Of a DNA stretch of 21,056 bases, positions 317 to 18,527 are shown piece by piece. Position 1 is the first letter of the stretch. Each line of letters opens with the position of its first letter. The notes under the pieces are model-generated. The model was not told the origin of the DNA and searched no databases. It worked only from the letters and a program-made list of their open reading frames with translations. The DNA lies in contig JADHVS010000057.1 in assembly GCA_016783865.1 (NCBI GenBank), positions 1-21,056 on the forward strand. The letters run 5' to 3'. Made by a program: the position numbers and the translations under genes. Source of the DNA: Bacteroidales bacterium (lineage in GTDB: Bacteria > Bacteroidota > Bacteroidia > Bacteroidales > SM23-62).

Positions 317-2329
317 TTATTTCTTACTCAGGATCTCTTCCAGCTTCTGGATCTCATCCCTGAACATTGCAGCTTCAATAAAATTTAATTCCTTTGCTGC
401 CTTTTCCATTGATTTCCTTGTCTTATCAATGGTTTTCTGAAGGGCAGCCTTGTCCATATACCGGATCAACGGATCGGCAGCCACATTAACCTCCTCGGGT
501 TCGGTATAGTAGTCACCCCGGGTAATGCTGTTAATCGGCCTGCCCATAAAGTTTTTTGAGGCTTTAATGATCTGTTTGGGTGTGATCTTGTTTTCCTCGT
601 TATATGATAATTGCTTCTCGCGCCTGCGAACCGTCTCATCAATAGTACGCTGCATCGAATTCGTAACTTTATCGGCATACATAATTACCTTCCCGTTGAG
701 GTTTCTTGCCGCCCGGCCCGCAGTCTGGGTCAGTGAGCGCTCCGACCTGAGAAATCCCTCCTTATCGGCATCGAGAATGGCAACCAGTGATACTTCAGGC
801 AGATCAAGTCCTTCCCGTAACAGGTTGATCCCAACCAGCACATCGAAGGTGCCTTTTCTTAAACCTTCCATAATCTCCACACGATCCAGTGTATCGATGT
901 CAGAATGAATATAACGGGTACGGATATTCAACTTGACCAGGTATTTTGTCAACTCTTCGGCCATTCGCTTGGTAAGAGTAGTCACCAGGATACGTTCTTC
1001 TTTTTTAACCCTTTCATGTATTTCTCCCAACAGGTGGTCAATCTGGTTTAAGCTTGGCTTTATATCAATGACCGGATCAAGCAATCCTGTCGGCCGGATA
1101 ACCTGTTCCACGATGATCCCTTCACATTTTTCCAATTCAAAATCGGCGGGGGTGGCACTTACAAATACCACCTGGTGGATAATTCCCTCAAATTCATCAA
1201 ATTTCAGGGGGCGGTTATCAATAGCAGCCGGCAAACGAAATCCGTATTCAACCAGATTCGTTTTACGCGAATGATCTCCTCCGAACATGGCTCTTACCTG
1301 GGGCAGTGTAACATGACTTTCATCCACGAACATCAGGAAATCCTCGGGGAAATAATCGAGCAGACAGAATGGCCTGGCGCCGGCTGGCCTTCCATCGAAA
1401 TATCTTGAATAATTTTCAATGCCCGGGCAGTGCCCCAGCTCTTTTATCATCTCCAGGTCATAGTTGACTCTTTCTTCTATCCTTTTGGCTTCCAGATCTT
1501 TCCCGTGATCCTTGAAAAAGTCTATTTGCTTGATCAGGTCATTCTCGATCTGTTCAATGGCCGCCTTCATCCGGTATTTCGTTGTAACAAAAATATTGGC
1601 CGGATAGACAAATACCTTTTCAAATTTTTCCAGTGTATTTCCATTAATCGGATCGAACGAGGAAATCTCCTCAATCTCGTCCCCCCAGAAAACAAACCGA
1701 TAGCCAAGATCATGATAGGCGAGAAACACATCCACGTTATCACCGCGAACCCTGAACGTACCCTTTTTGAAGTCGATCTCATTCCTGGAATACATGCTGT
1801 CAACCAATTTCCGAAGTAAATCGTTCCTTGAGATTTTTTGTCCCACCTCGATTTGCAGGGTGTTTTCATGAAAGTCTTCGGGATTTCCGATACCATACAA
1901 ACATGAAACAGAAGAGACCACAATCACATCCTTTCTTCCTGACAGCAGGGAAGAGGTAGTGCTTAATCGCATTTTCTCAATCTCATCATTGATCGAGAGA
2001 TCTTTCTCGATATAGAGGTTGGTGACGGGCAGATATGCTTCAGGCTGGTAATAATCATAATAGGATACAAAATATTCGACTGCATTTTCCGGGAAGAATT
2101 GTCTGAACTCTCCATATAGCTGGGCGGCCAGGGTTTTATTATGACTCAGTACCAGCGTGGGCCGGCCGATGTTCCGGATGACATTGGCCATTGTAAAGGT
2201 CTTCCCTGATCCCGTCACACCCAGGAGGGTCTGGTATTTGTCCTTATTCAGTAATCCCTCTGTCAGCTGCTTAATCGCCTCCGGCTGATCTCCTGTGGGT
2301 TTGTAGTCTGATGTCAGGTTGAAATTCAT
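317..2329 (-). CDS. uvrB: UvrABC excinuclease subunit B
   Basis: UvrB is the damage-verifying helicase-like subunit of nucleotide excision repair; it receives DNA from UvrA and recruits UvrC for the dual incision. The 670-residue length is usual. In order: Walker A GVTGSGKT (residues 37-44), the beta-hairpin region VSYYDYYQPEAYLP (88-101) that clamps one DNA strand, the DESH Walker B box (336-339), VSATP, the helicase motifs VGINLLREGLDLPEV and QTAGRAARN, and a C-terminal UVR coiled coil (about 630-665) that binds UvrC. The frame is open back to an ATG at 2371, but those 14 extra codons translate a 7-bp repeat array and are not conserved UvrB sequence. The start at 2329 (MNFNLTSDYKPTGDQP) matches the family N-terminus. 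There is no clear Shine-Dalgarno sequence, as is common in this phylum. It lies downstream of the EEP-family gene on the same strand with a gap of about 98 bp. Confidence 0.97.
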   Translation of the reverse strand: MNFNLTSDYKPTGDQPEAIKQLTEGLLNKDKYQTLLGVTGSGKTFTMANVIRNIGRPTLVLSHNKTLAAQLYGEFRQFFPENAVEYFVSYYDYYQPEAYLPVTNLYIEKDLSINDEIEKMRLSTTSSLLSGRKDVIVVSSVSCLYGIGNPEDFHENTLQIEVGQKISRNDLLRKLVDSMYSRNEIDFKKGTFRVRGDNVDVFLAYHDLGYRFVFWGDEIEEISSFDPINGNTLEKFEKVFVYPANIFVTTKYRMKAAIEQIENDLIKQIDFFKDHGKDLEAKRIEERVNYDLEMIKELGHCPGIENYSRYFDGRPAGARPFCLLDYFPEDFLMFVDESHVTLPQVRAMFGGDHSRKTNLVEYGFRLPAAIDNRPLKFDEFEGIIHQVVFVSATPADFELEKCEGIIVEQVIRPTGLLDPVIDIKPSLNQIDHLLGEIHERVKKEERILVTTLTKRMAEELTKYLVKLNIRTRYIHSDIDTLDRVEIMEGLRKGTFDVLVGINLLREGLDLPEVSLVAILDADKEGFLRSERSLTQTAGRAARNLNGKVIMYADKVTNSMQRTIDETVRRREKQLSYNEENKITPKQIIKASKNFMGRPINSITRGDYYTEPEEVNVAADPLIRYMDKAALQKTIDKTRKSMEKAAKELNFIEAAMFRDEIQKLEEILSKK

Positions 2330-3630: not shown

Positions 3631-5037
3631 ATGTCAGAGCAGAATGCCAATCTATTAAAGCGGATCTCAAAACTGGCCAAACAAAACCAGGAACTTATTG
3701 AGCAAAATGAAAAGCTCAGTAAGGAAAACGATAAGATCCAGGAAGAATTAATATACCTGCAGGAGATCCTGGACGAATTCAAGAAGGGGGGAGCATTACC
3801 TGAGGCTAAAGATGCCGATCGTCCAAAGTCTCTTAGCTTTAAGATGGCTACCGTGCTTTACGCCGATATCCACGGATTCTATAAGATCTCGGATGGGATG
3901 GATTCTGAAAAACTGATGGATGAGCTGGATGAGGTATTATTTACGTTTGACAAGATCCTTAAGAAGTACAAGATACAGAAGATCAAAACCATTGGTGACT
4001 CGTTTATGTGTGCGGGTGGTATCCCTGTAAAAAATATAACCAACCCGGTACAGGTTGTAATGGCTGCCATCGAAATGAATCAATTCCTGGATGAATTTAA
4101 GAGTCATCTTGATGAGGAAAAGAGGATATGGGATATCAAAGTGGGAATCCATACGGGGCCTGTGACTGCTAATGTACTGGGCAAGAAAAAAGTATCCTAT
4201 GACATCAAGGGTGATACGGTGAATATTACAACAAGAATGGAAGCTTCTGCAGAGTTTGGCAGTATCCTGATCTCGGTAATGACTTATGAGCTGACCAAGG
4301 AATTCTTCGTGTGCGAGTATTCAGGAAAATTACCGGTCAAATACCACAAGGACCTTGAGATGTTCAAGTTAAAGGGATTGAGACCGGAGTTCTCTGATGA
4401 TGAAAAGGGGATCGTCCCGAATGAGGCATTCAATACCAAGTTTAAGTTAATCCAGTTTACTGATATGCAGGAGATTATACTTGACAAACTGGAGCAGGGA
4501 CTCCCCAAATACCTGTATTACCATAATGTGAAGCATACCGTCGATGTGGTTACTGAGGTTGAGTTAATTGGCTGGGCTGAAGGATGCTCAGATGAGGAAT
4601 TAGTTTTGTTAAAAACCGCTGGTCTTTTCCATGATGCCGGACATACCATTGGGTATGATAATCATGAGGAGTATGGATGTGATATGGCGAGGGATTTTTT
4701 GCCCAAGTATGGATACAGTGAAGAGCAGATAGAAAAGATTTGTGATATTATTATGGCCACTAAAATGCCTCCACAGCCTAATGATCTGCTGCAATCCATT
4801 ATTTGTGATTCAGACCTGGATTACCTGGGCCGGACTGATATGATACCCGTTTCAAATACACTGTACAAAGAATTGAAAGAGCAGAACAAGATCGGAACTT
4901 ACAATGACTGGAATAAGCTGCAGGTAAAATTTATTACAGGGCACCAGTATTTTACTGAAACCGCAAGGAACCTGCGCGAGGTAAATAAGCAGAAGCAGAT
5001 AGAGCGGATCAAGGCGCTTATTACAAAGGAGGACTAG
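3631..5037 (+). CDS. Class III adenylate cyclase fused to a phosphodiesterase-like HD domain
   Basis: A 468-residue soluble protein with no signal peptide or membrane segment. Residues 1-52 are a charged, heptad-like coiled coil, probably for dimerisation. Residues about 70-225 are a class III cyclase homology domain: metal-binding Asp79 (YADIHGF) and Asp123 (IGDSFM), adenine-selecting Lys119 and Asp191 (SYDIKGD), and transition-state Asn198 and Arg202 (VNITTR). All six catalytic positions are present and the base-selecting pair points to ATP, so cAMP is the expected product. Residues about 290-440 are an HD-type metallohydrolase domain: YHNVKH (297-302), HDAGH (334-338), and Asp393/Asp395. 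The Y-H-N-x-x-H and H-D-x-x-H pattern is that of class I cyclic nucleotide phosphodiesterases. The protein may therefore both make and hydrolyse cyclic nucleotide, or the HD half may act on another nucleotide. The ATG at 3631 begins the coiled coil; there is no upstream extension. Domain identities are secure; the coupled activity is inferred. Confidence 0.9.
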   Translation: MSEQNANLLKRISKLAKQNQELIEQNEKLSKENDKIQEELIYLQEILDEFKKGGALPEAKDADRPKSLSFKMATVLYADIHGFYKISDGMDSEKLMDELDEVLFTFDKILKKYKIQKIKTIGDSFMCAGGIPVKNITNPVQVVMAAIEMNQFLDEFKSHLDEEKRIWDIKVGIHTGPVTANVLGKKKVSYDIKGDTVNITTRMEASAEFGSILISVMTYELTKEFFVCEYSGKLPVKYHKDLEMFKLKGLRPEFSDDEKGIVPNEAFNTKFKLIQFTDMQEIILDKLEQGLPKYLYYHNVKHTVDVVTEVELIGWAEGCSDEELVLLKTAGLFHDAGHTIGYDNHEEYGCDMARDFLPKYGYSEEQIEKICDIIMATKMPPQPNDLLQSIICDSDLDYLGRTDMIPVSNTLYKELKEQNKIGTYNDWNKLQVKFITGHQYFTETARNLREVNKQKQIERIKALITKED

Positions 5038-5094: not shown

Positions 5095-5208
5095 AAAATA
5101 GCGAAAAAGTTAATTGCCTGATTAATAGATACTTTGGAAAGAAGATGGCTGGCACTCAAGAATAGTGCCAGGAATTCGGCCAATTACATCAACCAAAAAC
5201 TAAACATC

Positions 5209-6582
5209 ATGAAACGCATCAGCCTTTCATCAAATTTGAAAACTATAGCTGCTGTTATAGTTTTCTGTTCTGTCCTTTTTAGTTGTAGCCAGGAGAAAAA
5301 AGATCTGAAAGTGATCACCGTTTCAGGTTGTGTTTTTATTGATAATGTATCTATGCACAATGCTAAGTTCGGTTCACTTTCTGATTCAGGTGAAACCAGT
5401 GCTTTGCTTGTATCAGAAGGAGACCTGCTTCTGGCTTTCGGTGAACCGGATGGATTCATCGGGTATATTATGTATAGAGAAGAGTTTGGACTGCATCTTG
5501 AAATTACCATTGATTCAACAGCTCCGGGAATACTCAGGATAAATGATAAGATCCATTCATTGTATCTGGATAATGATACTGAATTAAGTGAAAGGATAGG
5601 TGAAATGAATAGTGAAGACCTTGCAGTCCTGGATTTGTTATATGTAAGTGACGTGACTGGAGAAGATGATATAGCTGCATTAAATATGATCGCTGAAGCG
5701 AATCCGGGCATCGGATTATCGCTTGAGAATATCGATAGCCTGGAACTGGTTTATGAAATACTTTCAATGTTCCATCCCACCTGTCTGATCATTATGGATA
5801 TTGATCTGGATAGCCGGATAAGTGACCTGACTGCAAATTTTGAGAATCTTGAATTGGTACTACTGGGTGAGGAAAACCTGGAGGTGGGTGATTTTCTGAA
5901 TGAATTGCCAAAATTAAAATCATTGATCCTTGGTGGCTGGGATCCCGGCGAATCAAATCATATCCAATTTGAAAAAATGTCTGGCCTGGAATCATTAACC
6001 ATTGCCGAATCAAATATAGAGTCACTGGATGTTCTGGGTGATCTGAAAAAACTGTCGTCATTGTATTTAATCATGTGTGATGACCTGAGGGATATCTCAA
6101 AGGTAAAGACCTTTCCCGGACTACAGTGTTTAAGCCTTATGGATTGTGATACATTAACGGAACTGTCTGTATTAAAAGAGATTCCCTCGTTGCTTTGGCT
6201 GTCGTTTCCATTGGAAACAAGCCAGGCGGATTTCGATGACATACTGACACTTCATACATCCTTACAAGGAGTTGAATTACTCGGATGTGAAAATCTGACC
6301 GATATATCATCCCTTACCCGGCTTCAGAAATTGAAGGCTCTGACTATTGGAGGGATGGAGATTGATTACAAAACACTGCAGCAACTTGAAGGGATTGAGC
6401 TGATTGTAATTGAAGAGGAATCTTTTTCAGCTGCCGGGGATGAAATTGCAGCACTTAAGGAAGCATTGCCTGGTGCACAGATCGTCCCGGGAGGAGGATT
6501 CTGCATGGGATCGGGATGGATACTGCTAATACTTCCTGTTTTTTTGCTCGCATTTGGTTATAGAAGGTTTATCAGGAATTGA
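5209..6582 (+). CDS. Leucine-rich-repeat lipoprotein with a CTERM-like C-terminal sorting tail
   Basis: The product is 457 residues from the ATG at 5209. The frame is open back to 5134, but the start at 5209 (MKRISLSSNLKTI) gives a proper SPII signal with lipobox LFSC, so it is preferred. Residues after the lipidated Cys read SQEKKD, which loosely recalls the charged surface-export signals of Bacteroidota lipoproteins. The middle and C-terminal half (residues about 210-395) hold roughly eight leucine-rich repeats of 21-24 residues, for example LKSLILGG, LESLTIAES, LSSLYLIMC, LQCLSLMDC, LKALTIGG, giving a curved protein-binding surface. The last 30 residues are a tripartite tail: GGGFCMGSG, a hydrophobic helix (WILLILPVFLLAFGY) and the basic end RRFIRN. 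This is the layout of CTERM sorting signals of the GG/Cys type (MYXO-CTERM, Synerg-CTERM). A CPBP protease gene follows 16 bp later. Ligand and biological role are unknown. Confidence 0.8.
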   Translation: MKRISLSSNLKTIAAVIVFCSVLFSCSQEKKDLKVITVSGCVFIDNVSMHNAKFGSLSDSGETSALLVSEGDLLLAFGEPDGFIGYIMYREEFGLHLEITIDSTAPGILRINDKIHSLYLDNDTELSERIGEMNSEDLAVLDLLYVSDVTGEDDIAALNMIAEANPGIGLSLENIDSLELVYEILSMFHPTCLIIMDIDLDSRISDLTANFENLELVLLGEENLEVGDFLNELPKLKSLILGGWDPGESNHIQFEKMSGLESLTIAESNIESLDVLGDLKKLSSLYLIMCDDLRDISKVKTFPGLQCLSLMDCDTLTELSVLKEIPSLLWLSFPLETSQADFDDILTLHTSLQGVELLGCENLTDISSLTRLQKLKALTIGGMEIDYKTLQQLEGIELIVIEEESFSAAGDEIAALKEALPGAQIVPGGGFCMGSGWILLILPVFLLAFGYRRFIRN

Positions 6583-6598
6583 TCACAACCTTTGCTGA

Positions 6599-7258
6599 AT
6601 GACATCCCTGTTTAAAATTCAAAATGAAAAAAACTCTGTATTACTTGAGACCATTTTACTGGTAGCGGGGATAGGTGTATTTGCATGGTTTATCCAGGAA
6701 GATAATTATTTAATTGCTGTTGCCTTTGGTGGTTTGTTACTGGCCTCACTCGTTATTTCTGCAATCATTGTCAAATCAGAATCCCCTGCAGAGATTTTTG
6801 GAATAGACCGCTTCAATAAGAGGATACTGCTCTATTGTCTGGCAGGAGTGATCATAGGGGTGTTGCCGGCATTTTATGGCAGGTACTATTATGATTTACC
6901 GGATTTCCCCGGATCCCTTACAATTATTGCCCTTGTTTCTCCATTAATTGGGATTACAGAAGAGCTCGTTTTCAGGGGATTTGTTCAGGGCAGGCTGAGG
7001 ATCCTTGGAGTGTTTGGTTCTGTATCAATTGCCGCAGCCGCCCACACGATATACAAGTTTTTTATATTATGGTCTGTGAATGAATTAGTTGAAGTTAATT
7101 TTTTGGCTCTTACAGGTCTTACGTTCTTTTTCGGGATAATTTATGGATTGCTGCGGGCCGGATCCAGGAGTGTATTACCAGCCCTGGTAGCACATGCATT
7201 CTTTGATCTGCTCATGTACGGCGATTTTACCTCAATGCCTGTCTGGGTGTGGGGGTAA
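6599..7258 (+). CDS. CPBP-family intramembrane glutamic endopeptidase (Rce1/MrtX-like)
   Basis: A 219-residue, highly hydrophobic protein with about six to seven membrane segments. It carries the three CPBP (Abi/Rce1) motifs: EELVFRG with catalytic Glu121-Glu122 and Arg126, the second-motif His149 (AAAAHTIYKF), and the third motif His199...Asp203 (VAHAFFDLL). This family includes the CAAX protease Rce1, bacteriocin-immunity proteins and the dedicated CTERM-processing proteases (myxosortase-type). The start at 6599 lies 16 bp after the stop of the LRR lipoprotein, so the two are almost certainly one operon. The lipoprotein's Gly/Cys-helix-Arg tail is exactly the kind of substrate such proteases cleave. 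I infer that it processes its neighbour in the inner membrane. Alternatives are a generic housekeeping CPBP protease or an immunity function. The family call is secure and the pairing is a hypothesis. Confidence 0.9.
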   Translation: MTSLFKIQNEKNSVLLETILLVAGIGVFAWFIQEDNYLIAVAFGGLLLASLVISAIIVKSESPAEIFGIDRFNKRILLYCLAGVIIGVLPAFYGRYYYDLPDFPGSLTIIALVSPLIGITEELVFRGFVQGRLRILGVFGSVSIAAAAHTIYKFFILWSVNELVEVNFLALTGLTFFFGIIYGLLRAGSRSVLPALVAHAFFDLLMYGDFTSMPVWVWG

Positions 7259-7728: not shown

Positions 7729-10137
7729 ATGAAGAACCATAGCACCTGTGTCCCTAATTTTATTATTGCATTTTCAGTCTTTATACTCCTGTCCTCTTGT
7801 GAAAAGAAGGCTGATCGGGTCAGCGACTATCCTATAAAACCTGTTCCGTTCACTGCTGTACAGGTAACGGATAATTTCTGGGCACCGCGCATAAAGAAAA
7901 ATCATGAGGTTACTATTCCTATTGCATTCCGGCAATCTGAGGAAACAGGCCGGATTAAAAATTTCCATATTGCCGGCGGATATGAAGAGGGTGAATTTTG
8001 TTCCAATTACCCGTTTGATGATTCTGATGTGTATAAGATAATTGAAGGAGCCAGTTATTCACTGCAGATGTTTCCGGATCCTGAATTGGAATCTTACCTG
8101 GATACTTTGATTTTTTATATTGGTGAAGCACAGGAAGAAGATGGTTACCTGTATACCTACCGGACCATTATGGGCGATAATTCTCATCCGTGGGTTGGCC
8201 CAACCAGGTGGGAGATTCTTGACCACAGTCATGAGTTATACAATCTGGGTCATATGTATGAAGCGGCAGTTGCCCATTTCCAGGCGACAGGCAAAAGAAG
8301 CTTTCTGGATATTGCTATCAAGTCGGCCGACCTTGTTTACAATGACTTTGGATGGGGAAAAGTTGAAAAATATCCCGGGCACCAGGAAATTGAGATAGGA
8401 CTGGTTAAATTATTTCGTGCTACAGGGGACGAAAAATATCTCGAACTTGCAAAATTTCTCCTCGATGTCAGAGGAAATGGTGAGGAATACAACCAGGCCC
8501 ATATGAAGGTAGTAGAGCAGACCGAGGCGGTGGGACATGCAGTCCGTGCCGGTTATATGTATGCCGGTATGGCCGATGTGGCCGCACTGACCAATGACCC
8601 GGCCTACATCAATGCCACCCGGGAAATATGGGAGGATATTGTTCAGAAAAAAATGTATATCACGGGGGGAATTGGTGCGGCAGGTGGAAATGAGGGATTT
8701 GCCGATCCCTATGAACTGCCCAATATGTCGGCTTATTGTGAGACCTGCGCATCCATCGCCAACGTATTCTGGAATTTCAGGATGTTCCTTCATTCCGGAG
8801 AGGTGGAATTTTATGATGTACTGGAAAGGACGTTGTATAATGGATTGCTTTCCGGCCTTGGACTGACAGGTGATCTGTTCTTCTACCCCAATCCGTTGGA
8901 ATCATACGGCCAGCACCAGCGGCAGGAATGGTTTGGCTGTGCCTGCTGTCCTTCCAACATCAGCAGGTTTATTCCCTCTATTCCCGGCTATATTTATGCG
9001 ACACGGGAAAATGATCTGTTTGTTAATATGTATATGGCAAATAAAGCCACTATTGATTTGAACGGCACACCCGTTAACATCCGCCAGGATACACGGTACC
9101 CATACGATGGAGCCATTAAGTTGATCCTTGATCCGGAGCAGGAATTAACTTTTACATTGAATCTGAGGGTTCCCGGCTGGGCAAGAAATGAAGTCATTCC
9201 AGGCGATCTGTATCATTTTACCAAACATTACAATGGCGATGTAACAATCACTGTTAACGGTGAAAAAAAAGCAGTTGATGTGTTAGATGGTTTTATTCTA
9301 CTGGATCAGACCTGGAGGAAAGGGGATATTGTGGAAGTTCATTTTTCCATGCCCGTCAGGTTAATTGAAGCCAATGAATTGGTTAAGGCCGACCAGGGAA
9401 GGTTGGCTGTGCAGCGTGGCCCGCTTGTATTTTGTGCTGAATGGCCCGACAATCCTGAAGGACATGTCCTGAACCTGGTGTTTGATCCCGAACAGGAATT
9501 TACCGAAGAATTTCATCCTGATTTACTGGGAGGTACGGTGGTTTTATCCGGATCATCCGTGCCATCAAAAAGAAAACCGGAGGATGAGATTGAGGTGGGA
9601 GAGAAGCAAGAGCTGAAACTTATCCCGTATCATCTCTGGGCCAACAGGGGACCGGGTGAAATGATGGTCTGGTTGCCCTTGTCGGTTGAAAAGTCAAGGC
9701 CACTTCCGGCGCCTACCATTGCTTCGAAAAGCAAAGTTTCTGCTTCTAAGGAGACGAAAGCATTGGTGGGACTGAATGATCAGTTTGAACCGGAAAACTC
9801 TGATGACCGCACGGCAGCTCGTTACCACTGGTGGCCGGATACCAATATGGTCCATTGGGTACAATACGATTTTGAAAAAACTGAAACAGTGGAAAGGGTA
9901 GAGGTTTACTGGTTTGATGACAGTCCGCACGGTGGATGCAGGATCCCTGCTTCCTGGGAGGTTGAATATAAGTCAGGCGGATCATGGTTGCCGGTGAGTA
10001 ACCCGGGTGAATACACTGTTACAAAGGATAGGTATGATGTGGTCAAATTTAAACCGGTGAAAACAAAGGCGCTGAGGTTGAATGTAACCTTACAGGAAAA
10101 CTGGTCGGGCGGGATCCTGGAGTGGAAGGTATACTAG
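7729..10137 (+). CDS. GH127 (DUF1680) beta-L-arabinofuranosidase-like lipoprotein with C-terminal discoidin-like domain
   Basis: An 802-residue exported enzyme. Residues 1-24 form an SPII signal with lipobox LSSC (Cys24). Residues about 35-650 match glycoside hydrolase family 127, retaining enzymes that remove beta-L-arabinofuranose from arabinans and glycoproteins, using a zinc-bound cysteine as nucleophile. The key residues are visible: Glu322 in GGNEGF (acid/base candidate), Glu338 and Cys340 in YCETC, and Cys406-Cys407 in GCACCPSN. These correspond to the Glu-Cys-Cys-Cys zinc cluster and the nucleophile of the characterised family member HypBA1. Residues about 678-802 form a beta-sandwich of the F5/8 (discoidin) type, probably a sugar-binding module. 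It is the first gene of the carbohydrate locus, 61 bp upstream of the epimerase gene. The family is sure. The exact sugar is less sure, because GH127 relatives (GH142, GH146 and others) share the fold. Confidence 0.92.
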   Translation: MKNHSTCVPNFIIAFSVFILLSSCEKKADRVSDYPIKPVPFTAVQVTDNFWAPRIKKNHEVTIPIAFRQSEETGRIKNFHIAGGYEEGEFCSNYPFDDSDVYKIIEGASYSLQMFPDPELESYLDTLIFYIGEAQEEDGYLYTYRTIMGDNSHPWVGPTRWEILDHSHELYNLGHMYEAAVAHFQATGKRSFLDIAIKSADLVYNDFGWGKVEKYPGHQEIEIGLVKLFRATGDEKYLELAKFLLDVRGNGEEYNQAHMKVVEQTEAVGHAVRAGYMYAGMADVAALTNDPAYINATREIWEDIVQKKMYITGGIGAAGGNEGFADPYELPNMSAYCETCASIANVFWNFRMFLHSGEVEFYDVLERTLYNGLLSGLGLTGDLFFYPNPLESYGQHQRQEWFGCACCPSNISRFIPSIPGYIYATRENDLFVNMYMANKATIDLNGTPVNIRQDTRYPYDGAIKLILDPEQELTFTLNLRVPGWARNEVIPGDLYHFTKHYNGDVTITVNGEKKAVDVLDGFILLDQTWRKGDIVEVHFSMPVRLIEANELVKADQGRLAVQRGPLVFCAEWPDNPEGHVLNLVFDPEQEFTEEFHPDLLGGTVVLSGSSVPSKRKPEDEIEVGEKQELKLIPYHLWANRGPGEMMVWLPLSVEKSRPLPAPTIASKSKVSASKETKALVGLNDQFEPENSDDRTAARYHWWPDTNMVHWVQYDFEKTETVERVEVYWFDDSPHGGCRIPASWEVEYKSGGSWLPVSNPGEYTVTKDRYDVVKFKPVKTKALRLNVTLQENWSGGILEWKVY

Positions 10138-10140
10138 GGA

Positions 10141-10182
10141 AGAAGACAGAATTCAGAATACAGAAGACAGAAGGAAGAAAAA
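10141..10182. repeat. 7-bp-period tandem array between the GH127 and aldose epimerase genes
   Basis: Six consecutive heptamers each begin with AGAA. The first and fourth are identical (AGAAGAC at 10141-10147 and 10162-10168) and the others differ in the last three bases. The array starts 3 bp after the GH127 stop codon and ends 16 bp before the epimerase ATG at 10199. It is the clearest example in the window of the strict 7-bp period. Confidence 0.8.
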
Positions 10183-10198
10183 TCAAAAATAAATCATT

Positions 10199-11326
10199 AT
10201 GAAAAGAGCAATTAATTATTTATGGATTTTACTATTATTGATTTCAAATTCATGCCAGGAGCCGGCCAAAATCAAACACATTTCTGAGGAACCTTTTGGC
10301 GAGATCGACGGTAAGAAGGTAATACTCCATACCCTGACCAACAGCACCGGCAGCCAGGTGAAAATTACAAATTACGGAGCCAAGGTAGTGTGGATAACGG
10401 TTCCCGATAAAAATGGAGAATTGGAAAACATCACCTTTGGATATGAAACGCTGGCTGATTATGAGTCCGGGGATAAATATTTTGGCGCTGTAGTGGGAAG
10501 GTATGCCAACCGAATCGCCAAAGGACAATTCACCCTTGACGACCAGGTATATAACCTGGAAATAAATAATGAGCCAAACACGTTACACGGAGGCCCGGGT
10601 GGATGGCACAGCACGGTTTGGGATGTGGAAGAAACAACTTTCAATGAGCGGCCTGCACTTCATTATACCTATTCCAGTCCGGATGGAGAAGAAGGATATC
10701 CCGGCAACATGAAAGCCGAGGTGTTTTATTCCTGGACTGATAACAATGAGTTGATAATCAATTATGTCGTTTCAACAGAGCAGAAATCGGTATTGAATAT
10801 TACCAACCATGCATACTTTAATCTTAAGGGTGCAGGGGCAGGCAATATCCTTGATCATGAACTGCAGATTTTTGCTTCGCGCTTTACTCCGGTCGACAGT
10901 ACCCTGATTCCTACAGGTGAGCTCAGATCCGTTAAAGGCACACCATTTGACTTTTTAGAGCCGCATCTGGTTGGAGAAAGAATTGACGAACCTTATGATC
11001 AGCTGATCCTGGGACGTGGCTATGATCATAACTATATTCTCGACAATCCCGGTGATTTGGAAGTGGATGCCATTGTTTATGAGCCGGTTAGCGGCAGGCA
11101 AATTGAGATGCGCACCGACCAGCCGGGTGTACAGTTCTATTGTGGCAATTTTCTGGATGGATCACAAAAGGGACATGGCGGGAAAGCATATGAATATCGG
11201 GGAGGACTGTGCCTTGAAACACAGCATTTCCCTGACAGCCCTAACCAGCCCGATTTCCCGTCAGTGATCATCGAGCCGGATAAACCATTTACTTCGTACA
11301 CTATTTATAAGTTTACGCTAAGATGA
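10199..11326 (+). CDS. Aldose 1-epimerase (mutarotase) lipoprotein
   Basis: A 375-residue protein with an SPII signal (lipobox ISNSC, Cys19), so it is anchored in the cell envelope and not cytoplasmic like the GalM of sugar catabolism. It interconverts alpha and beta anomers of aldoses. The fold-defining motifs are complete: NTLHGGPGGWH with His130, NITNHAYFNL with catalytic His204 (general acid), DHNYIL with Asp276, and LETQHFPDSPNQPDFP with catalytic Glu340 (general base). Length and motif spacing are normal for the family. Downstream of a retaining arabinofuranosidase, its likely task is to equilibrate the anomer of released sugars before uptake; this is inferred from position. Only 61 bp, mostly the 7-bp array, separates it from the GH127 gene, so the two are likely one transcript. 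A hairpin follows the stop codon. Confidence 0.95.
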   Translation: MKRAINYLWILLLLISNSCQEPAKIKHISEEPFGEIDGKKVILHTLTNSTGSQVKITNYGAKVVWITVPDKNGELENITFGYETLADYESGDKYFGAVVGRYANRIAKGQFTLDDQVYNLEINNEPNTLHGGPGGWHSTVWDVEETTFNERPALHYTYSSPDGEEGYPGNMKAEVFYSWTDNNELIINYVVSTEQKSVLNITNHAYFNLKGAGAGNILDHELQIFASRFTPVDSTLIPTGELRSVKGTPFDFLEPHLVGERIDEPYDQLILGRGYDHNYILDNPGDLEVDAIVYEPVSGRQIEMRTDQPGVQFYCGNFLDGSQKGHGGKAYEYRGGLCLETQHFPDSPNQPDFPSVIIEPDKPFTSYTIYKFTLR

Positions 11327-11329
11327 TCC

Positions 11330-11357
11330 ATTGCCGTCAGTTTTAACTGACGGCAAT
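11330..11357 (+). terminator. Hairpin after the aldose epimerase gene
   Basis: A perfect 13-bp stem (ATTGCCGTCAGTT and its complement, 11330-11342 and 11345-11357) with a 2-base loop starts 3 bp after the epimerase stop codon. A second small hairpin follows (CAGGG/CCCTG, within 11373-11388). Neither is followed by a T-tract, so it may be a stabilising or REP-like structure and not a classical intrinsic terminator. The position suggests the GH127-epimerase transcript ends here. Confidence 0.5.
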
Positions 11358-11405
11358 CGATATATAAAGATCTTCAGGGTTTTAGCCCTGTAAAACTCTG
11401 TGTTC

Positions 11406-12075
11406 ATGATCAAATTAATCAGAGCATCATTCATAATCATCCTGTTAATATAAGCTTCTTGTAAACAGGGAACTGAAAAGCAAAAGCATGATGTCCTGTT
11501 TATTTCAATCGACGATATGAACGATTGGGGCGGATGCATGGGATGCCGGGAAGGCTTTTACAGGGACTGGAAGAGAGTGACCGTACTGAAAATACCATCA
11601 TTGTTTTATGGTCGGACCACGGCATGAATATCGGGAAAAGGAGCATTGGGAGAAATTTACACTTTGGGAGGAGTCAACCCGAATCCCGCTGATAATAAAA
11701 GCTCCAGGCATTACGCCTGAAAGCGGTGCTGTATGTCACGAAGCCGTGAGCCTGCTGGATGTATATCCCACGCTGGTGGAACTAATGGATGCCGAAGCCT
11801 GGAAGCAGCTGGAGGGAACCAGACTGCTGCCACAATTATCAGATCCGGGAACCGACCGGCCTGTACCGGCCATCACCACCTATGGTCAAAATAATCACCC
11901 AATACGGACAGAACGATGGAGGTACATACAATACCACAATGGCGGCGAGGAGCTGTGCGACCATGAAACCGATCCGGATGAGTCCTTTAATTTCGCAGGA
12001 AAAGAAGAATACCGGCATCTGATGGATTCACTTAAAACCTGTCTCCCGGAGATTAATGAAAAGGCCCCGGGTTGA
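11406..12075 (+). pseudogene. Sulfatase (S1, iduronate-2-sulfatase-like) pseudogene: nonsense mutation, internal deletion, frameshift
   Basis: Reading from the ATG at 11406, the first 15 codons look like a lipoprotein signal (MIKLIRASFIIILLI). They are followed by an in-frame TAA (11451-11453) and then ASCKQG, the remains of a lipobox. The same frame continues with DVLFISIDDMNDWGGCMG, the canonical sulfatase N-terminus with its metal-binding Asp pair. Near 11540-11546 the sequence jumps directly to the C-terminal half in another frame (GRLLQGLEESDRTENTIIVLWSDHG), so the whole CxPxR active-site region is missing, probably more than 700 bp. At about 11632-11640 a one-base loss moves the rest into a third frame (EKEHWEKFTLWEESTRIPL, then to the stop at 12075). 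The open frame at 11608-12075 (155 residues) is thus a relic and not a gene. The parent was probably about 480-500 residues. Loss appears old, since three lesions have accumulated. Confidence 0.88.
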
Positions 12076-12392
12076 ACAGGATTTAATGAAAGGATACTAT
12101 TGTTTACAGAACTCACCTTTTTAGTATCTGAAGTAATTAACAGAGCGAAAAATTTACGGATTGCAATGATTAATATATTATGTGCTTATTACATGGACTA
12201 ATTAAATCAATTGCAGATTTGTGGTAATTATGAATGATTCATGTTATTGATTTTTTCAGAATTTAATCACAAATTGTTATGTTCTCGAGAAATTTGTTAT
12301 CACAATTAAAATTCACTGATAACCGATGGATATTTTGTGAATAATCATCTCAGAAAAATACGTTTAAACAACTATTAACCAAATTAAAGACT
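12076..12392 (+). other. 317-bp AT-rich gap before the T9SS protein gene
   Basis: No open frame with a recognisable product, no RNA gene and no repeat array is visible. The region is strongly AT-rich, as expected for a leader with a promoter. TATTTTG at 12331-12337 is an imperfect -7 candidate (one T short of TAnnTTTG) with no well-placed TTG. Two similar words (AAATTGTTAT at 12271-12280 and AATTTGTTAT at 12291-12300) flank the palindrome TCTCGAGA; this could be an operator but is too short to assert. Confidence 0.3.
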
Positions 12393-15300
12393 ATGAAAAA
12401 ACTACTGCTTTCTATTGTTTTACTGGCTGGTGCAGTACTGGCCTACGCACAGGCTGACACCGTTCCCAATTTACTTATTACAGAGTGGCGGGGGGAAAGC
12501 TGGAATAATTCCTACGTTGAGATCACCAATATCGGTGATACGGCCATAGACATGGCTGATGTTTTTTATTCCTCGATCCCCCCGGGGCGGCAACTGTACG
12601 CAGCGCCTTATGGGTATTCGATGGATCCCGCCGTTGACGATGTACATGGAACCTACCTGTCGGGCATTCTGGGACCGGGGGAATCCATGGTCATCGCATC
12701 GATGTATGATGCTCCGGATGCTGCCGGTGCTACAAAAAACCTTCAACGGTTCCTCGATTCGAAGCATTTCTTTTCATACAAGCTGGAAGCTTCAGATTAT
12801 TATTTCCCGTACCATCCGGAGGTGGAGATGTGGGGAAAGGATAGTGTTTCCAATGTCGCAGCGGGAGCTGATAATAATTTTGAACAATTATTGAGATTGT
12901 GGGGTTCATATGCAAGTGCAATATGGTACAAATATCCGACAGGAGATTCTGTAATGGTTGACCAGGTAAGGTTTGCTGTAGATGCAACGCTGCATGTTGA
13001 TAGTGATCCGGAAAAGGATAATGTGGCTGGTGTTGAAGATGCAACCTCCACCCACACACTTGTTCGCAAAGCTAACACTCCAAGGGGTAACCTTGACTGG
13101 GACGACTCAAGAGGAATTGATATTGCTGATTCAGAATGGCTGCCTATCCCCTTTTATGGAGGGAAAACACTCTATACAACAGTGGGTAACCATGGGGATT
13201 ACAGCATTGTCCTGGAACCTGAATCAACCATCGAGGTTATTGATACCACTGCATTAACCGTAAACTGGGGTATTTATAAGGGCGATTCCATCATGGATGA
13301 ATTTACAATAGGTGACGGTATGGGATGGCAGTATATTGAGGATACAATCGATTTCGCCGATTCAGCCCATGCTATCGTACAGACAGGTGATATATTAAAT
13401 GTTTTTGCCTGTGGAAACGACCTGGAGTGGCATTCCTATAAGATTACGGTTGCTACGCCGGCAACAGATATGGCACTGGTATTCCCGAAAAGAAGGATGC
13501 GCTTTGAGGCCATGCAGGAAGAGGATTTCAATGGAATTATGTGGGGTGCTGAGCCCTACTATGTGACTGAAGACCAGCCGGAGATGGATACGATCGGTGA
13601 TGTGCCTTTTGCCACCCGGGTGGATACATTGTATAAGTACCTGGAAAAGGCATCAAACGCTTCATGGGAAATAGTATGGGTAGATGATAATGAGCGGGTC
13701 GATGTAAAATATGGAGATATTCTTAAGGTGACCGCTGAAGATGGCACAACGATAGAGGAATACTTCATCGATGTACAGGAATTTGAAGCCAGCGATAATG
13801 CAAGGCTTGGAGCCATAACCTGGCCGGAGAAGCCCGAAGGGATTTTTGACTGGAAGGGGGATACGATCCCGGGATTTAATCCTTCATCTCAAAGCTACAT
13901 ACTTAAACTGGACTATGGAACGAAGCTTGTACCTGCTTTATTAGCCTCACCGGAAGATATGAATGCAACCATCAGTGTGAACAGGGCAACATCTCTCACA
14001 GGAGGCACCGAACAGAGGACAACCACCTTTATTGTTACCGCGGAAGATGATTCCACAGTTCTCGAGTATAAAGTATTGTTCGTGATTGACAGGCCATTGG
14101 AGCTGGATCAGCCATACGTTGGTGAACCCTTTATCTCTGAGATGGTAGCGAGGGAACAGGCCTGGGGGGCAATGCTCGAAATTATGAATCCTCAGGGAAT
14201 ACCCCTTGATATTTCGGAATATATGATTGTAACGACCGGCACTGGTTTGGACAATCCGGCTGATGCTGTGGCAGATATAAGGCCAGTTAGTTATGATGCT
14301 ACAAGCTTCGATATCAGGTACCAGAAGGCCTATGTACCGGGTTATAAATTTGCAGGGGATACATCTGAATGGAAGGTGGACGGGATGAGGCTGAAAAGTG
14401 ATCAGGCGGTTGATCCGTTTGTTGAGCCAATGGATGTATTTGTGGTTTCGCAAGCGCATCAAAAACCTGAAAAAGTTTCACCTTATATTAATGAGGCCGA
14501 TGTTATTGTCAGTCCGATCGAATACAGTCCATGGCCCAATGAATCCCACCATATCAGGAACCTGTTAAACAATCTGAGCTTTGATGGAGACAATTATGTA
14601 TTTCTGTTTAAAATAACGAGTGATTCTGTATTTAATGGGCTTAAAGAAGTAGGAGATATCGGTGACCTGGAACTTGTTGACAGGTTCGGACCTACTATAG
14701 AAGGATATAATATTGCAGGAAGGATCCTGGATAACAGCAAGGCAACCCGGTTGATGCTGAAACCAAACATCTTCTACCCAACGATAGAGCTGGGAGCCGG
14801 ATTCGGCACCACGGAGGAAAACAGCGATTGGATTATGAACCACTCATTTGATCCGGGTTGGAACGAATTCAGGATGTCCGAAAATATCGGTAGCCATGCC
14901 ATGGATCTTCCAACCGTTCACAAATCAACGGTTGCCTCCCTGGTCTACCTGGTGGACGACGGTTTCACCGGAAATCTTATGATACAGGGTGATTTCACAG
15001 GGCTTGCCGTCAGTGGTTTTATGGACAATATTATTAAGGCAGATACCGGGCAGGTGCTGACAATTATGAACGGAGTGGAAAAAGCAGCCGGCGATGACAT
15101 TGCCGGCGGAGATACCCTGCAGGTAGTATCGGCCGATGGCAATAATACCACCCTTTACAGGTTGCTAAACCAGCCGTTGGATGATGATGCCCTCCTGGTA
15201 GTGAAACCGGCTTATACGGGTTCTTATACTGTTACTGTAGATGGAGCAAACGGGACCATCTCAGGTTCTGGTATCCAGTGGGGCAAGCCCATTAAGGATA

Positions 15301-16601
15301 TCCTATCAGCACTGGAAGTGCCGGTTCTGGCCACATTCAACATCATTGACCAGGACGACAGGCAGGTACCCCTGAAGATCATCAATTATGACCTGCAAAC
15401 GGTCGATGTGAGGCTAAGTGATTCCATTTTCTTTGAAGTAATTGCTCAGAATGGAACCACAATTATTTACTATCAGTTAAAACCTGAGTCTATGTCGAGT
15501 GAGGCCTTCGTGGTTTCTTCGATGTTCCTGGTTGATCAGGATAATGTCAATATATCCCTGATTCCTGAAGGTATCGGAGTGGAGGTATTCATGGAATGGA
15601 TCGATCCTGTCACAGGAGCTACTGCAGCAGTCATTGATAAATACAGCAATGTAAGGATATCAGGTACCCTGGCGTACGATGACAAGCTTGAGGTCGTATC
15701 AGAGGACGGCACAAACAGGGTGGTTTATTATCTGAACTTCCTGAATGAGGCTTCACCGGATAACAACCTTGCGCCTACATTATCAGTTGCTTTTGCTGAC
15801 ACAAACATTATTGTAAATCAGACAATTACTCTAAAAGCAACTGCCGATGATGATGACATGCCGTTGCCAACGTTACTTACCGTAACCTGGAAAGTTATCA
15901 GTGGAGAAGGTGTAACCATCGCTGATCCCGGAGCATTAGAAACTGATGTTACTTTTGCCCAGGCGGGTGCCGTGGTGCTTCAGGTAACAGTTGATGATGG
16001 TGAGATCAGCAGGACAGAGATCATTAATGTAGGTGTATCCACACCCGGTAACAGTGCACCAACCGTTTCGGTAACTACCGCCAATTTCACGATAGAGGAG
16101 GGAGAATCCATTAATGTCGGTGCCACGGCTGATGATGATGGCAACCCAATCGGCTCAACATTGACCTATGAATGGACTGTGAAAACAGGAGTAAATGCCA
16201 ATGTTACCATTACCTCAGCTAACCAGCTGGATACTGAAGTTACCTTTAGTACAGCCGGTGTATATACATTGCAGATAACGGTTACAGATGGCGAGCTTAT
16301 TGCCACAGATATTGTTGTTGTAGTGGTAGAAGAAGCAGTTGGTTTTGCCCCGGTTCTTGAACCTGGATTGAGCCTTTATCCTAATCCTGTATCGGGTATA
16401 CTAACCCTCGAATTGCAGAACATGGGTGATATTTCTTCTACTGTGAAGTTGTTTAACATAACCGGACAGGCTGTTTACAATGGCGAGTTTACTATGAGCA
16501 AACTGCAGATTGATGTTAGTAATTTCGATGCAGGACTATATTTCGTAACGGTCCATGCAGCAGATCAAACATTTACAGAGAGGATTCAGATTGTGAAGTA
16601 G
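12393..16601 (+). CDS. T9SS-secreted multidomain protein with lamin-tail and PKD domains
   Basis: A 1402-residue protein beginning with an SPI signal peptide (MKKLLLSIVLLAGAVLAYAQ). Residues about 25-110 resemble a lamin-tail domain (NLLITEWRG...NSYVEITNIGD). A second related segment starts near residue 575 (PFISEMVAREQAWGAMLEIMN). Between and after these lie several short beta-rich modules with the recurring ending DILKVTAEDGTTIEEYFI / DTLQVVSADGNNTTLYRL / KLEVVSEDGTNRVVYYL, so a repeated beta-sandwich is likely. Two PKD-type domains begin at residues 1127 and 1222 (APTLSV, APTVSV). Residues 1326-1402 are a type A T9SS sorting domain (LYPNPVSGILTLEL...LFNITGQAVYNG...LDVSNFDAGLYFV type), so it crosses the outer membrane by type IX secretion. 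No catalytic motif was found; the lamin-tail and PKD domains suggest binding or scaffolding at the surface. A strong terminator follows. Confidence 0.85.
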   Translation: MKKLLLSIVLLAGAVLAYAQADTVPNLLITEWRGESWNNSYVEITNIGDTAIDMADVFYSSIPPGRQLYAAPYGYSMDPAVDDVHGTYLSGILGPGESMVIASMYDAPDAAGATKNLQRFLDSKHFFSYKLEASDYYFPYHPEVEMWGKDSVSNVAAGADNNFEQLLRLWGSYASAIWYKYPTGDSVMVDQVRFAVDATLHVDSDPEKDNVAGVEDATSTHTLVRKANTPRGNLDWDDSRGIDIADSEWLPIPFYGGKTLYTTVGNHGDYSIVLEPESTIEVIDTTALTVNWGIYKGDSIMDEFTIGDGMGWQYIEDTIDFADSAHAIVQTGDILNVFACGNDLEWHSYKITVATPATDMALVFPKRRMRFEAMQEEDFNGIMWGAEPYYVTEDQPEMDTIGDVPFATRVDTLYKYLEKASNASWEIVWVDDNERVDVKYGDILKVTAEDGTTIEEYFIDVQEFEASDNARLGAITWPEKPEGIFDWKGDTIPGFNPSSQSYILKLDYGTKLVPALLASPEDMNATISVNRATSLTGGTEQRTTTFIVTAEDDSTVLEYKVLFVIDRPLELDQPYVGEPFISEMVAREQAWGAMLEIMNPQGIPLDISEYMIVTTGTGLDNPADAVADIRPVSYDATSFDIRYQKAYVPGYKFAGDTSEWKVDGMRLKSDQAVDPFVEPMDVFVVSQAHQKPEKVSPYINEADVIVSPIEYSPWPNESHHIRNLLNNLSFDGDNYVFLFKITSDSVFNGLKEVGDIGDLELVDRFGPTIEGYNIAGRILDNSKATRLMLKPNIFYPTIELGAGFGTTEENSDWIMNHSFDPGWNEFRMSENIGSHAMDLPTVHKSTVASLVYLVDDGFTGNLMIQGDFTGLAVSGFMDNIIKADTGQVLTIMNGVEKAAGDDIAGGDTLQVVSADGNNTTLYRLLNQPLDDDALLVVKPAYTGSYTVTVDGANGTISGSGIQWGKPIKDILSALEVPVLATFNIIDQDDRQVPLKIINYDLQTVDVRLSDSIFFEVIAQNGTTIIYYQLKPESMSSEAFVVSSMFLVDQDNVNISLIPEGIGVEVFMEWIDPVTGATAAVIDKYSNVRISGTLAYDDKLEVVSEDGTNRVVYYLNFLNEASPDNNLAPTLSVAFADTNIIVNQTITLKATADDDDMPLPTLLTVTWKVISGEGVTIADPGALETDVTFAQAGAVVLQVTVDDGEISRTEIINVGVSTPGNSAPTVSVTTANFTIEEGESINVGATADDDGNPIGSTLTYEWTVKTGVNANVTITSANQLDTEVTFSTAGVYTLQITVTDGELIATDIVVVVVEEAVGFAPVLEPGLSLYPNPVSGILTLELQNMGDISSTVKLFNITGQAVYNGEFTMSKLQIDVSNFDAGLYFVTVHAADQTFTERIQIVK

Positions 16602-16626
16602 TAGTTTGTGTTTTTCAAATTTAATT

Positions 16627-16664
16627 AAAAGCCTGCTCCTGGGGATTTGGGAGCAGGCTTTTTT
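16627..16664 (+). terminator. Rho-independent terminator after the T9SS protein gene
   Basis: GCCTGCTCC (16631-16639) and GGAGCAGGC (16650-16658) form a 9-bp GC-rich stem, extended by four A-T pairs, with a 10-base loop and followed by a run of six T (16659-16664). It lies 25 bp after the stop codon. This is the only textbook intrinsic terminator in the window and indicates that the sulfatase downstream has its own promoter. Confidence 0.92.
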
Positions 16665-16848
16665 AAATTACAGGATTATTAGCCTGGGAAGCAAATATAT
16701 TTTCTTAGTGATGTATGTTTTGGTATGGACAGAATTTGTGTATTAAGGTTGAAAGAAGCGATTTAATAATCATTCAGAGGGGGGAAATGGGGACTCGTAA
16801 AAATCCTTTATGAAACAATCTTTCTTTTAAAATTTATTCAAAACAAAT

Positions 16849-18468
16849 ATGAAGACGTTGAGATGTATTATTAGTCCTGTACTTATTCTTGCACTTTTTT
16901 GTGCCTGCAACGGGCAGGATCCTTCTTCAAGGCGCAAGCAGGAAAGGCCAAACATCATCTTTCTGCTGACTGACGACCAGGCATATAATACAGTTGGTTA
17001 TAGCGGGAATGGACAGGTCAAGACACCCAACATTGACCGGCTGGCACAGGACGGGATCTGGTTCAATAATTACTATTGCACTACATCGATATGCATGGGC
17101 AGCAGGGCAACCTACATGACCGGGATGTATGAGTACAAGACCGGGTGCAATTTTATGCATGGCCCGCTATCCAAAGATAAGTTTGCAGGATCCTATCCTG
17201 AGTTGTTGCAGGAAGCCGGTTACCGGACAGGTTTTGCAGGAAAGTTCGGATTTGCCGTCAAGGAGGATCCGAATTCAGGATCGGGTTATAATGATTATGG
17301 TGTCATGCCGGTTGATGAATTTGACTGGTGGGCCGGGGGACCGGGACAAACAAAATATGAGACAGCACAGAATAAATACATTGCCAGGTATGCGGAGGAA
17401 TGTCCCCATAGTTCCCGGGCCTACGGGGCAGCAGCTCAAGATTTTATTAAAGAATCGGTTATGGATGGCAGACCATTCTGCCTGTCCGTCAGCTTTAAGG
17501 CACCGCACGGCCCCCTGTCCCCGGATCCTGTATTCGATACCGTATATGAAAATACCATCTTTGATAAGCCAGTCAATTACGGGAGGGAGTCGGCCGGGCA
17601 CCTGGCCCTTCAGAGTAAACTTGGCCGGCAATACTTAAGGCTTTTTGGTGGGGATTATATGAAGAAATTCCAGGAGAGCTACAGGAAATACCATCAGCTG
17701 ATTTATGGTGTGGATTATGCCGTTGGAATGATTCGGGAAGAACTTGAAAGACAGGGTATTGCTGATAATACAGTCATTATTTTCACCTCCGATAACGGAT
17801 ATAACCTCGGATCGCATGGTTTCGGCGGGAAAGTGCTGCCATACGAAGAGGGATGCAGGGCCCCGCTGATCGTCTTCGATCCAAGGAGCAGAAGTGCAGG
17901 GAAAAAATGGCACAATGAAGCGGTTACAGGAAATACGGACATCGCACCGACCATTATTGAGCTGGCCGGGTTACCGGTACCTGAAAATATGGACGGGGAA
18001 AGCCTGTTGCCAGCCCTTGAAGATCCCGATGTTGATTTCCGGGAAGCCCTTCCCGTCATCCAGGCATGGGGTTCGGCCCCGAACCTGGCCTTTTCCTTGG
18101 TGACAGAGGAATGGAAATACATCTACTGGTATTTTGGTGACAATATGGATCCGGCAGAAGAGCTGTTTGATCTCAGAAATGATCCATACGAGATGAAGAA
18201 TATGGTTGCCGAGGAGTCTGCTAAAAAAGTCCTTGAAGAGATGCGAAAGTTATACGATTCGGAGATCCAGAGATGGAAGGATGAAGCCGTAACGACGGGC
18301 CATTACAAAGAGTTTGGGACCCTCTTTGACCGGCACGTCCCCTGGGCTCAGAAAGAAGACCTCATCCCCGGTCAATTTTTGAAGGTTTACTCCCGTGAAG
18401 TCGAGCATACAGGCTATTCAGGCGCACCGGATAATTATAGTGAAGTTATAAAACACCTCCAGGAATAA
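16849..18468 (+). CDS. S1-type sulfatase lipoprotein with atypical C-M-G-S-R active-site motif
   Basis: A 539-residue exported protein; residues 1-20 look like an SPII signal (LFCAC, Cys20 the likely lipid site). Arylsulfatases of this family hydrolyse sulfate esters on polysaccharides with a formylglycine made from an active-site Cys or Ser. Motifs in order: PNIIFLLTDDQ with metal-binding Asp42-Asp43, KTPNIDRLA, the active-site block TSICMGSRATYMTG with Cys82 and Arg86, GKFG with Lys132, APHGP with the active-site His, FTSDNGYNLGSHG with the Asp-Asn metal pair, and the C-terminal subdomain EWKYIYWYF...ELFDLRNDPYEMKNM. Nearly everything is standard. The exception is Gly84 at the place of the Pro or Ala in C-x-(P/A)-x-R, the motif read by maturation enzymes. 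The gene lies between a terminator and a fucosidase-like gene whose start is 60 bp beyond its stop codon. The specific sugar and sulfate position cannot be read here. Confidence 0.92.
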   Translation: MKTLRCIISPVLILALFCACNGQDPSSRRKQERPNIIFLLTDDQAYNTVGYSGNGQVKTPNIDRLAQDGIWFNNYYCTTSICMGSRATYMTGMYEYKTGCNFMHGPLSKDKFAGSYPELLQEAGYRTGFAGKFGFAVKEDPNSGSGYNDYGVMPVDEFDWWAGGPGQTKYETAQNKYIARYAEECPHSSRAYGAAAQDFIKESVMDGRPFCLSVSFKAPHGPLSPDPVFDTVYENTIFDKPVNYGRESAGHLALQSKLGRQYLRLFGGDYMKKFQESYRKYHQLIYGVDYAVGMIREELERQGIADNTVIIFTSDNGYNLGSHGFGGKVLPYEEGCRAPLIVFDPRSRSAGKKWHNEAVTGNTDIAPTIIELAGLPVPENMDGESLLPALEDPDVDFREALPVIQAWGSAPNLAFSLVTEEWKYIYWYFGDNMDPAEELFDLRNDPYEMKNMVAEESAKKVLEEMRKLYDSEIQRWKDEAVTTGHYKEFGTLFDRHVPWAQKEDLIPGQFLKVYSREVEHTGYSGAPDNYSEVIKHLQE

Positions 18469-18512
18469 ACCTCCAGGCAATTTGCTCCAAGGTAAAAGCT
18501 CCAATGTTAAAT
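18457..18512. repeat. Four tandem 14-bp units across the sulfatase stop codon
   Basis: Four successive 14-bp units each begin CTCCA: at 18457, 18471, 18485 and 18499 (for example CTCCAGGAATAAAC and CTCCAAGGTAAAAG). The first unit encodes the last three residues and the stop codon of the sulfatase. The last contains the ATG at 18504 that opens the apparent N-terminal extension of the next gene. The same word occurs at 5051-5094 and 7262-7275. Confidence 0.75.
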
Positions 18513-18527
18513 AAAAATTTAAACCAA

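Follow-up and report, generated by a model that had tools for sequence, protein, structure and literature searches.

A leucine-rich repeat protein with a conserved C-terminal cysteine tail and a neighboring CPBP protease form a candidate dedicated processing pair in Bacteroidota

The DNA analyzed here (the window) is a 21,056-nucleotide stretch from a Bacteroidales bacterium (assembly GCA_016783865.1, contig JADHVS010000057.1), in which a gene for a leucine-rich repeat (LRR) protein with a cysteine-containing C-terminal tail is followed directly by a gene for a CPBP (Rce1-like) intramembrane glutamic protease (Table 1). A first-pass annotation made from the sequence alone had proposed the two as a dedicated sorting pair, and its coordinates, its spacing of the two genes, its tail cysteine codon and its catalytic residues (Glu121/Glu122, Arg126, His149 and His199) all agree with the sequence and with the alignments described below. 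The LRR gene likely starts at the ATG at 5209 rather than at the TTG at 5134, the mechanical start given in the open reading frame (ORF) list. Its product matches PF25019 (34.2 bits, Pfam cut-off 27) and has the C-terminus GGGFCMGSGWILLILPVFLLAFGYRRFIRN, a tail laid out as GGGFCMGSGW, helix and RRFIRN, with Cys432 encoded by TGC. In the AlphaFold2 model (mean pLDDT 88.9 over the whole protein) a signal helix is followed by a beta region, the LRR region, a short loop with Cys432 and a helix at residues 436–456; the loop is the least certain section of the C-terminal part (mean pLDDT 61 over residues 431–440), after which values rise to 82–88. The best Foldseek folds are LRR proteins such as internalins, which are generic LRR matches and carry no implication of virulence.

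Table 1. Features of the two-gene locus, in window coordinates.
Feature	Position	Strand	Basis
Proposed substrate: 457-aa LRR protein, N-terminal signal/lipobox, C-terminal Cys tail	5209..6582	+	ORF, AlphaFold2 model, Pfam
Signal peptide with lipobox LFSC (Cys26 codon 5284-5286)	5209..5286	+	Sequence; helix 8-25 in model
N-terminal beta-strand region, residues about 34-120	5308..5568	+	AlphaFold2 model
LRR region of alternating strands and helices, residues about 121-429	5569..6495	+	Model, Foldseek, Pfam
Signature motif GFCMGSGW, residues 430-437 (Cys432 codon 6502-6504)	6496..6519	+	Conservation, 60 homologues
C-terminal hydrophobic helix and basic end (GYRRFIRN)	6514..6579	+	Helix 436-456 in model
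Gap between LRR and CPBP genes, 16 bp	6583..6598	+	ORF positions
CPBP (Rce1-like) intramembrane glutamic protease, 219 aa	6599-7258	+	Pfam, alignment, fold
CPBP codons: E121/E122; R126; H149; H199; D203	6959-6964; 6974-6976; 7043-7045; 7193-7195; 7205-7207	+	

The tail motif is the best-conserved stretch of the LRR protein. Across 60 full-length homologues (a count that includes near-duplicates, leaves out sequences under 420 aa, P0146 and the protein of genome G129, and takes proteins from our loci only if tailed), GFCMGSGW has a mean conservation of 0.94, against 0.77 for the best eight-residue stretch off the tail and a median of 0.55, and Cys432, Gly434, Gly436 and Trp437 are each found in 60/60. 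The bodies have diverged down to 17% identity, and in 270 pairs with a mean body identity of 22%, identity over 11 tail positions is 81%. Different codons encode 213 of 431 pairwise identical motif residues in the 12 loci compared below, which indicates that the protein sequence has been kept and not merely a shared piece of DNA. A search with a tail-free query, residues 28–215 of the L001 protein, gave 34 hits, 33 of them tailed; most are close relatives, the first 31 being at least 58% identical to the query region. Absence of the tail from orthologues, which the first-pass annotation had named as an outcome that would count against it, is therefore not the rule, with P0146 as the exception. 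A further search gave 37 proteins, of which P0001–P0023 (E 2.1e-61 or better) have the tail in 23/23. The weaker hits, P0024–P0037 (E 1.9e-25 and weaker), are other LRR proteins without it and were dropped.

With its invariant cysteine (60/60), one hydrophobic helix (436–456), basic end and position at the extreme C-terminus, the tail has the general layout of a Cys-CTERM signal. A search with CTERM models matched 0 families to the window tail; for 22 tails, Synerg-CTERM was listed for one, at E 1, and MYXO and JDVT were absent among the nine families listed, where weak matches may be filtered. Each carrier also appears to have a single tail. In genomes G001–G004, with all first-look candidates scored to E 10, we found one tail per genome (4/4; each 2.8e-16 or better) and a next tail-model match at 0.051 that covers the helix part of the model only, while the other carriers had one tail match each below the threshold used. 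Matches in G601, G667, G695 and G736 (E 0.0015–0.008) and in G832, G838 and G841 (E 0.004–0.008) were not counted as tails, since they cover the model partially and the surrounding frames look unrelated by eye. Separately, a WCIGSGW look-alike lies inside an unrelated protein and not at its end (L025 in G736, frame 1348–2103, minus strand).

The CPBP protein belongs to the CPBP family and carries its catalytic set. It matches PF02517 at 44.4 bits (gathering cut-off 22.4), and a structure-based fold search places it in the CPBP fold. E121, E122, R126, H149, H199 and D203 are invariant in the 57-row alignment A6 (the window protein plus 56 of 85 search hits), which gives the complete set EE-x3-R, His and His-x3-(N/D). 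His199 and Asp203 were nearly invariant in an earlier 23-row alignment because P0104, which is not among the rows of A6, diverges C-terminally and by eye looks out of frame. No PDB chain was matched by sequence up to E 0.1 (profile A6) and Foldseek gave no match below 0.001; the best VIA-align structural match was the SagB-SpdC complex.

Membership in the myxosortase (Mrt) families, which the first-pass annotation had suggested checking, is rejected. The protein lies under the curated NCBIfam cut-off on Mrt_core, MrtJ, MrtS, MrtX, MrtC and MrtP, its best score being 29.9 bits on Mrt_core against a cut-off of 100, and other CPBP proteins score similarly or higher. Five other CPBP loci (two Lactobacillus, one Oscillospiraceae, one Mucilaginibacter and one from the order of G001; three of the five queries partial) reach 18.8–39.6 bits on Mrt_core, three of them above the window protein, and all five outscore it on MrtS and MrtJ. 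Four of these loci, L005–L008, are weak relatives of the window CPBP protein from the pattern scan described below, L015 is the fifth, and L009 is not included. Both the tag and the CPBP protein stay below the cut-off on every NCBIfam sorting model listed.

The SpdC match bears on an alternative in which no cut is made. The two proteins could form a stable, nonproteolytic complex, the CPBP fold scaffolding the tail helix as SpdC does SagB and the motif serving as a helix-docking site; since the CPBP fold of SpdC scaffolds one partner, conserved pairing alone is no proof of proteolysis. We consider such a complex unlikely. The glutamic-protease residues are invariant in 57 aligned relatives, known C-terminal tags that are cleaved have this layout of cysteine and glycines at the membrane face, then helix and basic end (passages of PMC11980579), and most of the tail helix is poorly conserved in the 60 homologues, unlike a docking interface.

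The tailed LRR gene and the CPBP gene are neighbors in nearly every genome that carries the tail. A CPBP pattern scan of a species-genome collection gave nine loci, four of which (L001–L004) match at 35–41% over nearly the whole protein and five at 26–33%; the four are metagenome-assembled genomes titled Bacteroides sp. (three) and Prolixibacteraceae (one), and all four have a tailed LRR protein directly upstream. Whole-genome profile searches added seven two-gene loci, in G011, G129, G395, G798, G915, G917 and G919. In a comparison of 12 loci, the window and 11 genomes chosen for holding both genes, the CPBP family is present in 12/12 and the LRR body in 11/12 (in G129 the tail is on another body), and the next commonest neighbor family within 6.5 kb occurs in 3/12 (ORFs of at least 130 aa; some contigs short). 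Intergenic distances in the other 11 loci run from -37 to +27 bp (first candidate start), with a 4-bp overlap in 4/12. The CPBP gene adjoins in 11 of 12 tail-bearing genomes, and in the window, so that separation of the genes in relatives, the other outcome held to tell against the pair, is likewise exceptional (G156). Conversely, the tail is present in each of the 10 genomes that have a strong CPBP match. These counts, with the tail in 33/34 homologues and one tail per genome in 4/4, bear out the claim of a dedicated one-substrate, one-enzyme pair, and we regard the two-gene pairing as real and strongly supported. Eighteen of 56 lipoprotein clusters each have exactly the same longest-contig size as some CPBP cluster, which is suggestive only, genomic context being absent.

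Two loci depart from the common arrangement. In G156, the twelfth tail genome (L020, 446–766), a 106-aa LRR-protein remnant ends in the tail, with no CPBP gene found beside it and no CPBP match in the genome search. In G129 (L035, 6368–7450) tail and CPBP gene follow a body that by eye resembles an efflux membrane-fusion protein and not an LRR protein. G011 shares a downstream gene with G129 and has, by eye, an RND pump, a TolC-like protein, an LRR protein and a CPBP protein in that order, and for this reason the G129 fusion may be an in-frame deletion or a misassembly.

At the search sensitivity used, the pair has a rare and patchy distribution. In the order of G001, strong CPBP matches occur in 5/393 genomes, all five tailed, and the tail in 6/393, the sixth being G156. 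In the family of G004 the tail is present in 5/140 genomes, with the CPBP gene in the same five (three weak partial tail matches were excluded), and in the family of G001 in 4/7, the fourth, G395, having an adjacent CPBP gene. In the phylum sample G001 alone, of 395 genomes, has both genes, four weak matches to the tail and four to the CPBP protein being left out of the count. Divergent members may have gone undetected in the order and phylum searches, in which no more than 19 candidates for the tail, or 7 for the CPBP protein, were scored in any one genome. Matches in G373 (E 5.4e-11) and in G472, G510, G667 and G730 (E 1.3e-10 to 8.8e-9) were not counted as CPBP members, as members score 1.5e-55 or better.

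The same comparison bears on whether the tail is just an ordinary membrane anchor, next to a CPBP gene unrelated to it, with an adjacency that is inherited and not functional. The carriers found are related Bacteroidota and share some of their arrangement by descent, and inheritance alone may formally be the source of the adjacency. Against this, other neighbors vary among the loci while bodies fall to 17% identity, the two genes either overlap or are separated by no more than 27 bp in 12/12 loci, and the sole tail without an adjacent CPBP gene is the G156 remnant. Given the tail conservation and the 12-locus comparison, a meaningless neighborhood is unlikely, and we judge an ordinary anchor beside an unrelated gene very improbable.

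N-terminal lipidation, as predicted from sequence, is not universal across the LRR family. By eye, the N-terminal cysteine is preceded by G, A or S in 50/60 full-length homologues and by N, Q, R or K in 7/60, and no cysteine follows the signal-like helix in 3/60 (P0015, G395 and G798); a script found the strict lipobox pattern in 35/60. The suggestion that the LRR protein is anchored twice until its tail is cut thus fits part of the family and does not extend to the whole, whereas the tail cysteine is found in 60/60. This variation could favor regulated cleavage for signaling or shedding, in which the CPBP protease would free the LRR ectodomain or a tail peptide on cue and would not process every copy. 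LRRs are commonly binding domains, and the protein has LRR matches by both Foldseek and Pfam; having one substrate per genome is as compatible with a sensor or a shed protein as with a sorted one, and a tail cut could release the 10/60 homologues whose N-terminal lipid site is missing or atypical. A tail cut would not free most homologues, however, as 50/60 have a cysteine after G, A or S, and no regulatory gene is common to the 12 compared loci. We hold regulated release to be quite unlikely.

Carriers of the pair have a type IX secretion system (T9SS) and no detected type II secretion system (T2SS) secretin. The GspD model matched 0/11 carrier genomes (E 0.001; genome completeness not given), compared with matches in 6/14 control genomes, over the cut-off in two, and the T9SS protein SprA is over its cut-off in 11/11. 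MYXO-CTERM proteins depend on T2SS (passages of PMC11980579), a route that seems unavailable in these carriers, so that tail processing would not lead into the exit route known from proteins with MYXO-CTERM or GlyGly-CTERM tags. The presence of T9SS does not show that the LRR protein uses it, and no T9SS sorting domain was matched in that protein by NCBIfam or Pfam models.

Starting from the conserved pairing, the motif conservation, the single tail per genome and the CPBP fold with its catalytic set, we favor, with a probability of roughly 70%, a dedicated C-terminal processing pair, with cleavage and sorting likely. After Sec export, the C-terminal helix would retain the LRR protein in the inner membrane, with the basic end cytoplasmic and GFCxGSGW at the outer face. 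The CPBP protease would recognize GFCxGSGW and cut beside the invariant cysteine, probably after lipid modification of that cysteine. The cut would remove the helix, and the LRR protein would be carried on, lipid-attached through the tail cysteine, through the N-terminal cysteine where present, or through both. A more specific version is tentative, and we give it rather less than even odds: a T2SS-independent, myxosortase-like pathway in T9SS-bearing Bacteroidota with a tag (GFCxGSGW) and a protease subfamily peculiar to it, in which the cut beside a lipidated tail cysteine leaves a C-terminal lipid anchor and the N-terminal lipid is dispensable.

Several observations weigh against a processing pair. 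Asp72 in the LRR body is as invariant as the tail residues (60/60), some members, such as P0015 with its terminal RGYLLKSGD, are weakly basic at the C-terminus, and P0146, the sole exception in 34, lacks the tail, although its end looks like another frame. The G129 tail has Ala in place of one motif Gly and ends a protein whose body resembles a membrane-fusion protein. Asp203 of the window CPBP protein stands where MmRce1 has Asn231, a residue of its catalytic set (passages of PMC10811503), and CPBP-fold proteins can be scaffolds (SpdC, passages of PMC10581084). Finally, we infer cleavage by the CPBP protein and lipidation of the tail cysteine, as well as the topology and final location of the LRR protein.

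A dedicated processing pair would add a one-enzyme, one-substrate Cys-tag system in a phylum where the carriers possess T9SS and gave no T2SS secretin match. Its two short genes offer a minimal system for studying CPBP recognition and whether the tail cysteine needs lipidation first, an order of events that the passages of PMC11980579 leave open. The tail is a recognizable signature that could become a new family model.

Elsewhere in the window, a single protein is encoded at 3631-5037, 171 bp upstream of the ATG at 5209; it combines a class III nucleotide cyclase domain (PF00211) with a downstream HD domain (PF01966), and from its sequence is possibly a make-and-break cyclic nucleotide enzyme. 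Downstream, 7729-19736 is possibly a polysaccharide-use cluster, with genes for a GH127-type enzyme with an F5/8 domain (468.7 bits on the aceric acid hydrolase model, cut-off 950), a sulfatase, alpha-L-fucosidase family proteins and, by eye, a mutarotase-like protein. A 155-aa ORF at 11608-12075 resembles by eye the C-terminal part of a sulfatase and is possibly a remnant, and 12393-16601 encodes a protein of 1402 aa in which PKD repeats occur together with a T9SS type A sorting domain.

Among the papers searched, none on CPBP intramembrane proteases in Bacteroidota was found, and none on the LRR/CPBP pair was among the matches listed, although an in-silico study (ref. 16 of PMC11980579) may mention it. 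Like SagB-SpdC of Staphylococcus aureus, the pair joins a CPBP fold to one membrane-anchored partner; SpdC scaffolds a hydrolase (passages of PMC10581084), whereas here a Cys-tailed LRR protein is the partner. With MrtX/MYXO-CTERM of Myxococcus xanthus it shares a CPBP protease and a tripartite tag of invariant cysteine, hydrophobic helix and basic end, and in that species TraA is cleaved by MrtX in a manner that depends on the tail cysteines, with lipidation before cleavage a hypothesis (passages of PMC11980579). A laboratory strain of M. xanthus has 35 MYXO-CTERM-tagged proteins (same source), compared with one tail per genome here rather than many. Further differences from MYXO-CTERM are its reliance on T2SS, against no detected secretin in the carriers (0/11), and the score of the CPBP protein on MrtX, 17.4 bits against a cut-off of 180. 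The Synerg-CTERM tag is of Cys/Gly type in appearance, as is the tail here, and MrtS is weakly matched by 23/23 members of CPBP alignment A5, yet the window protein reaches 26.9 bits against a cut-off of 130, 5/5 other CPBP loci score higher, and 1/22 tails is listed, at E 1. On our analysis the pair is closest to the published MrtJ/JDVT-CTERM pair. It differs in phylum, in the score on MrtJ (24.6 bits against a cut-off of 75), in the lack of a JDVT model among the families listed for 22 tails and in its substrate, a family of LRR proteins. As in the beta- and gammaproteobacterial MrtJ/JDVT-CTERM system, in which a CPBP protein stands beside a single protein with an invariant-Cys C-terminal tag (passages of PMC11980579), it is of the two-gene type with one enzyme and one target, with adjacency in 11/12 and one tail per genome.
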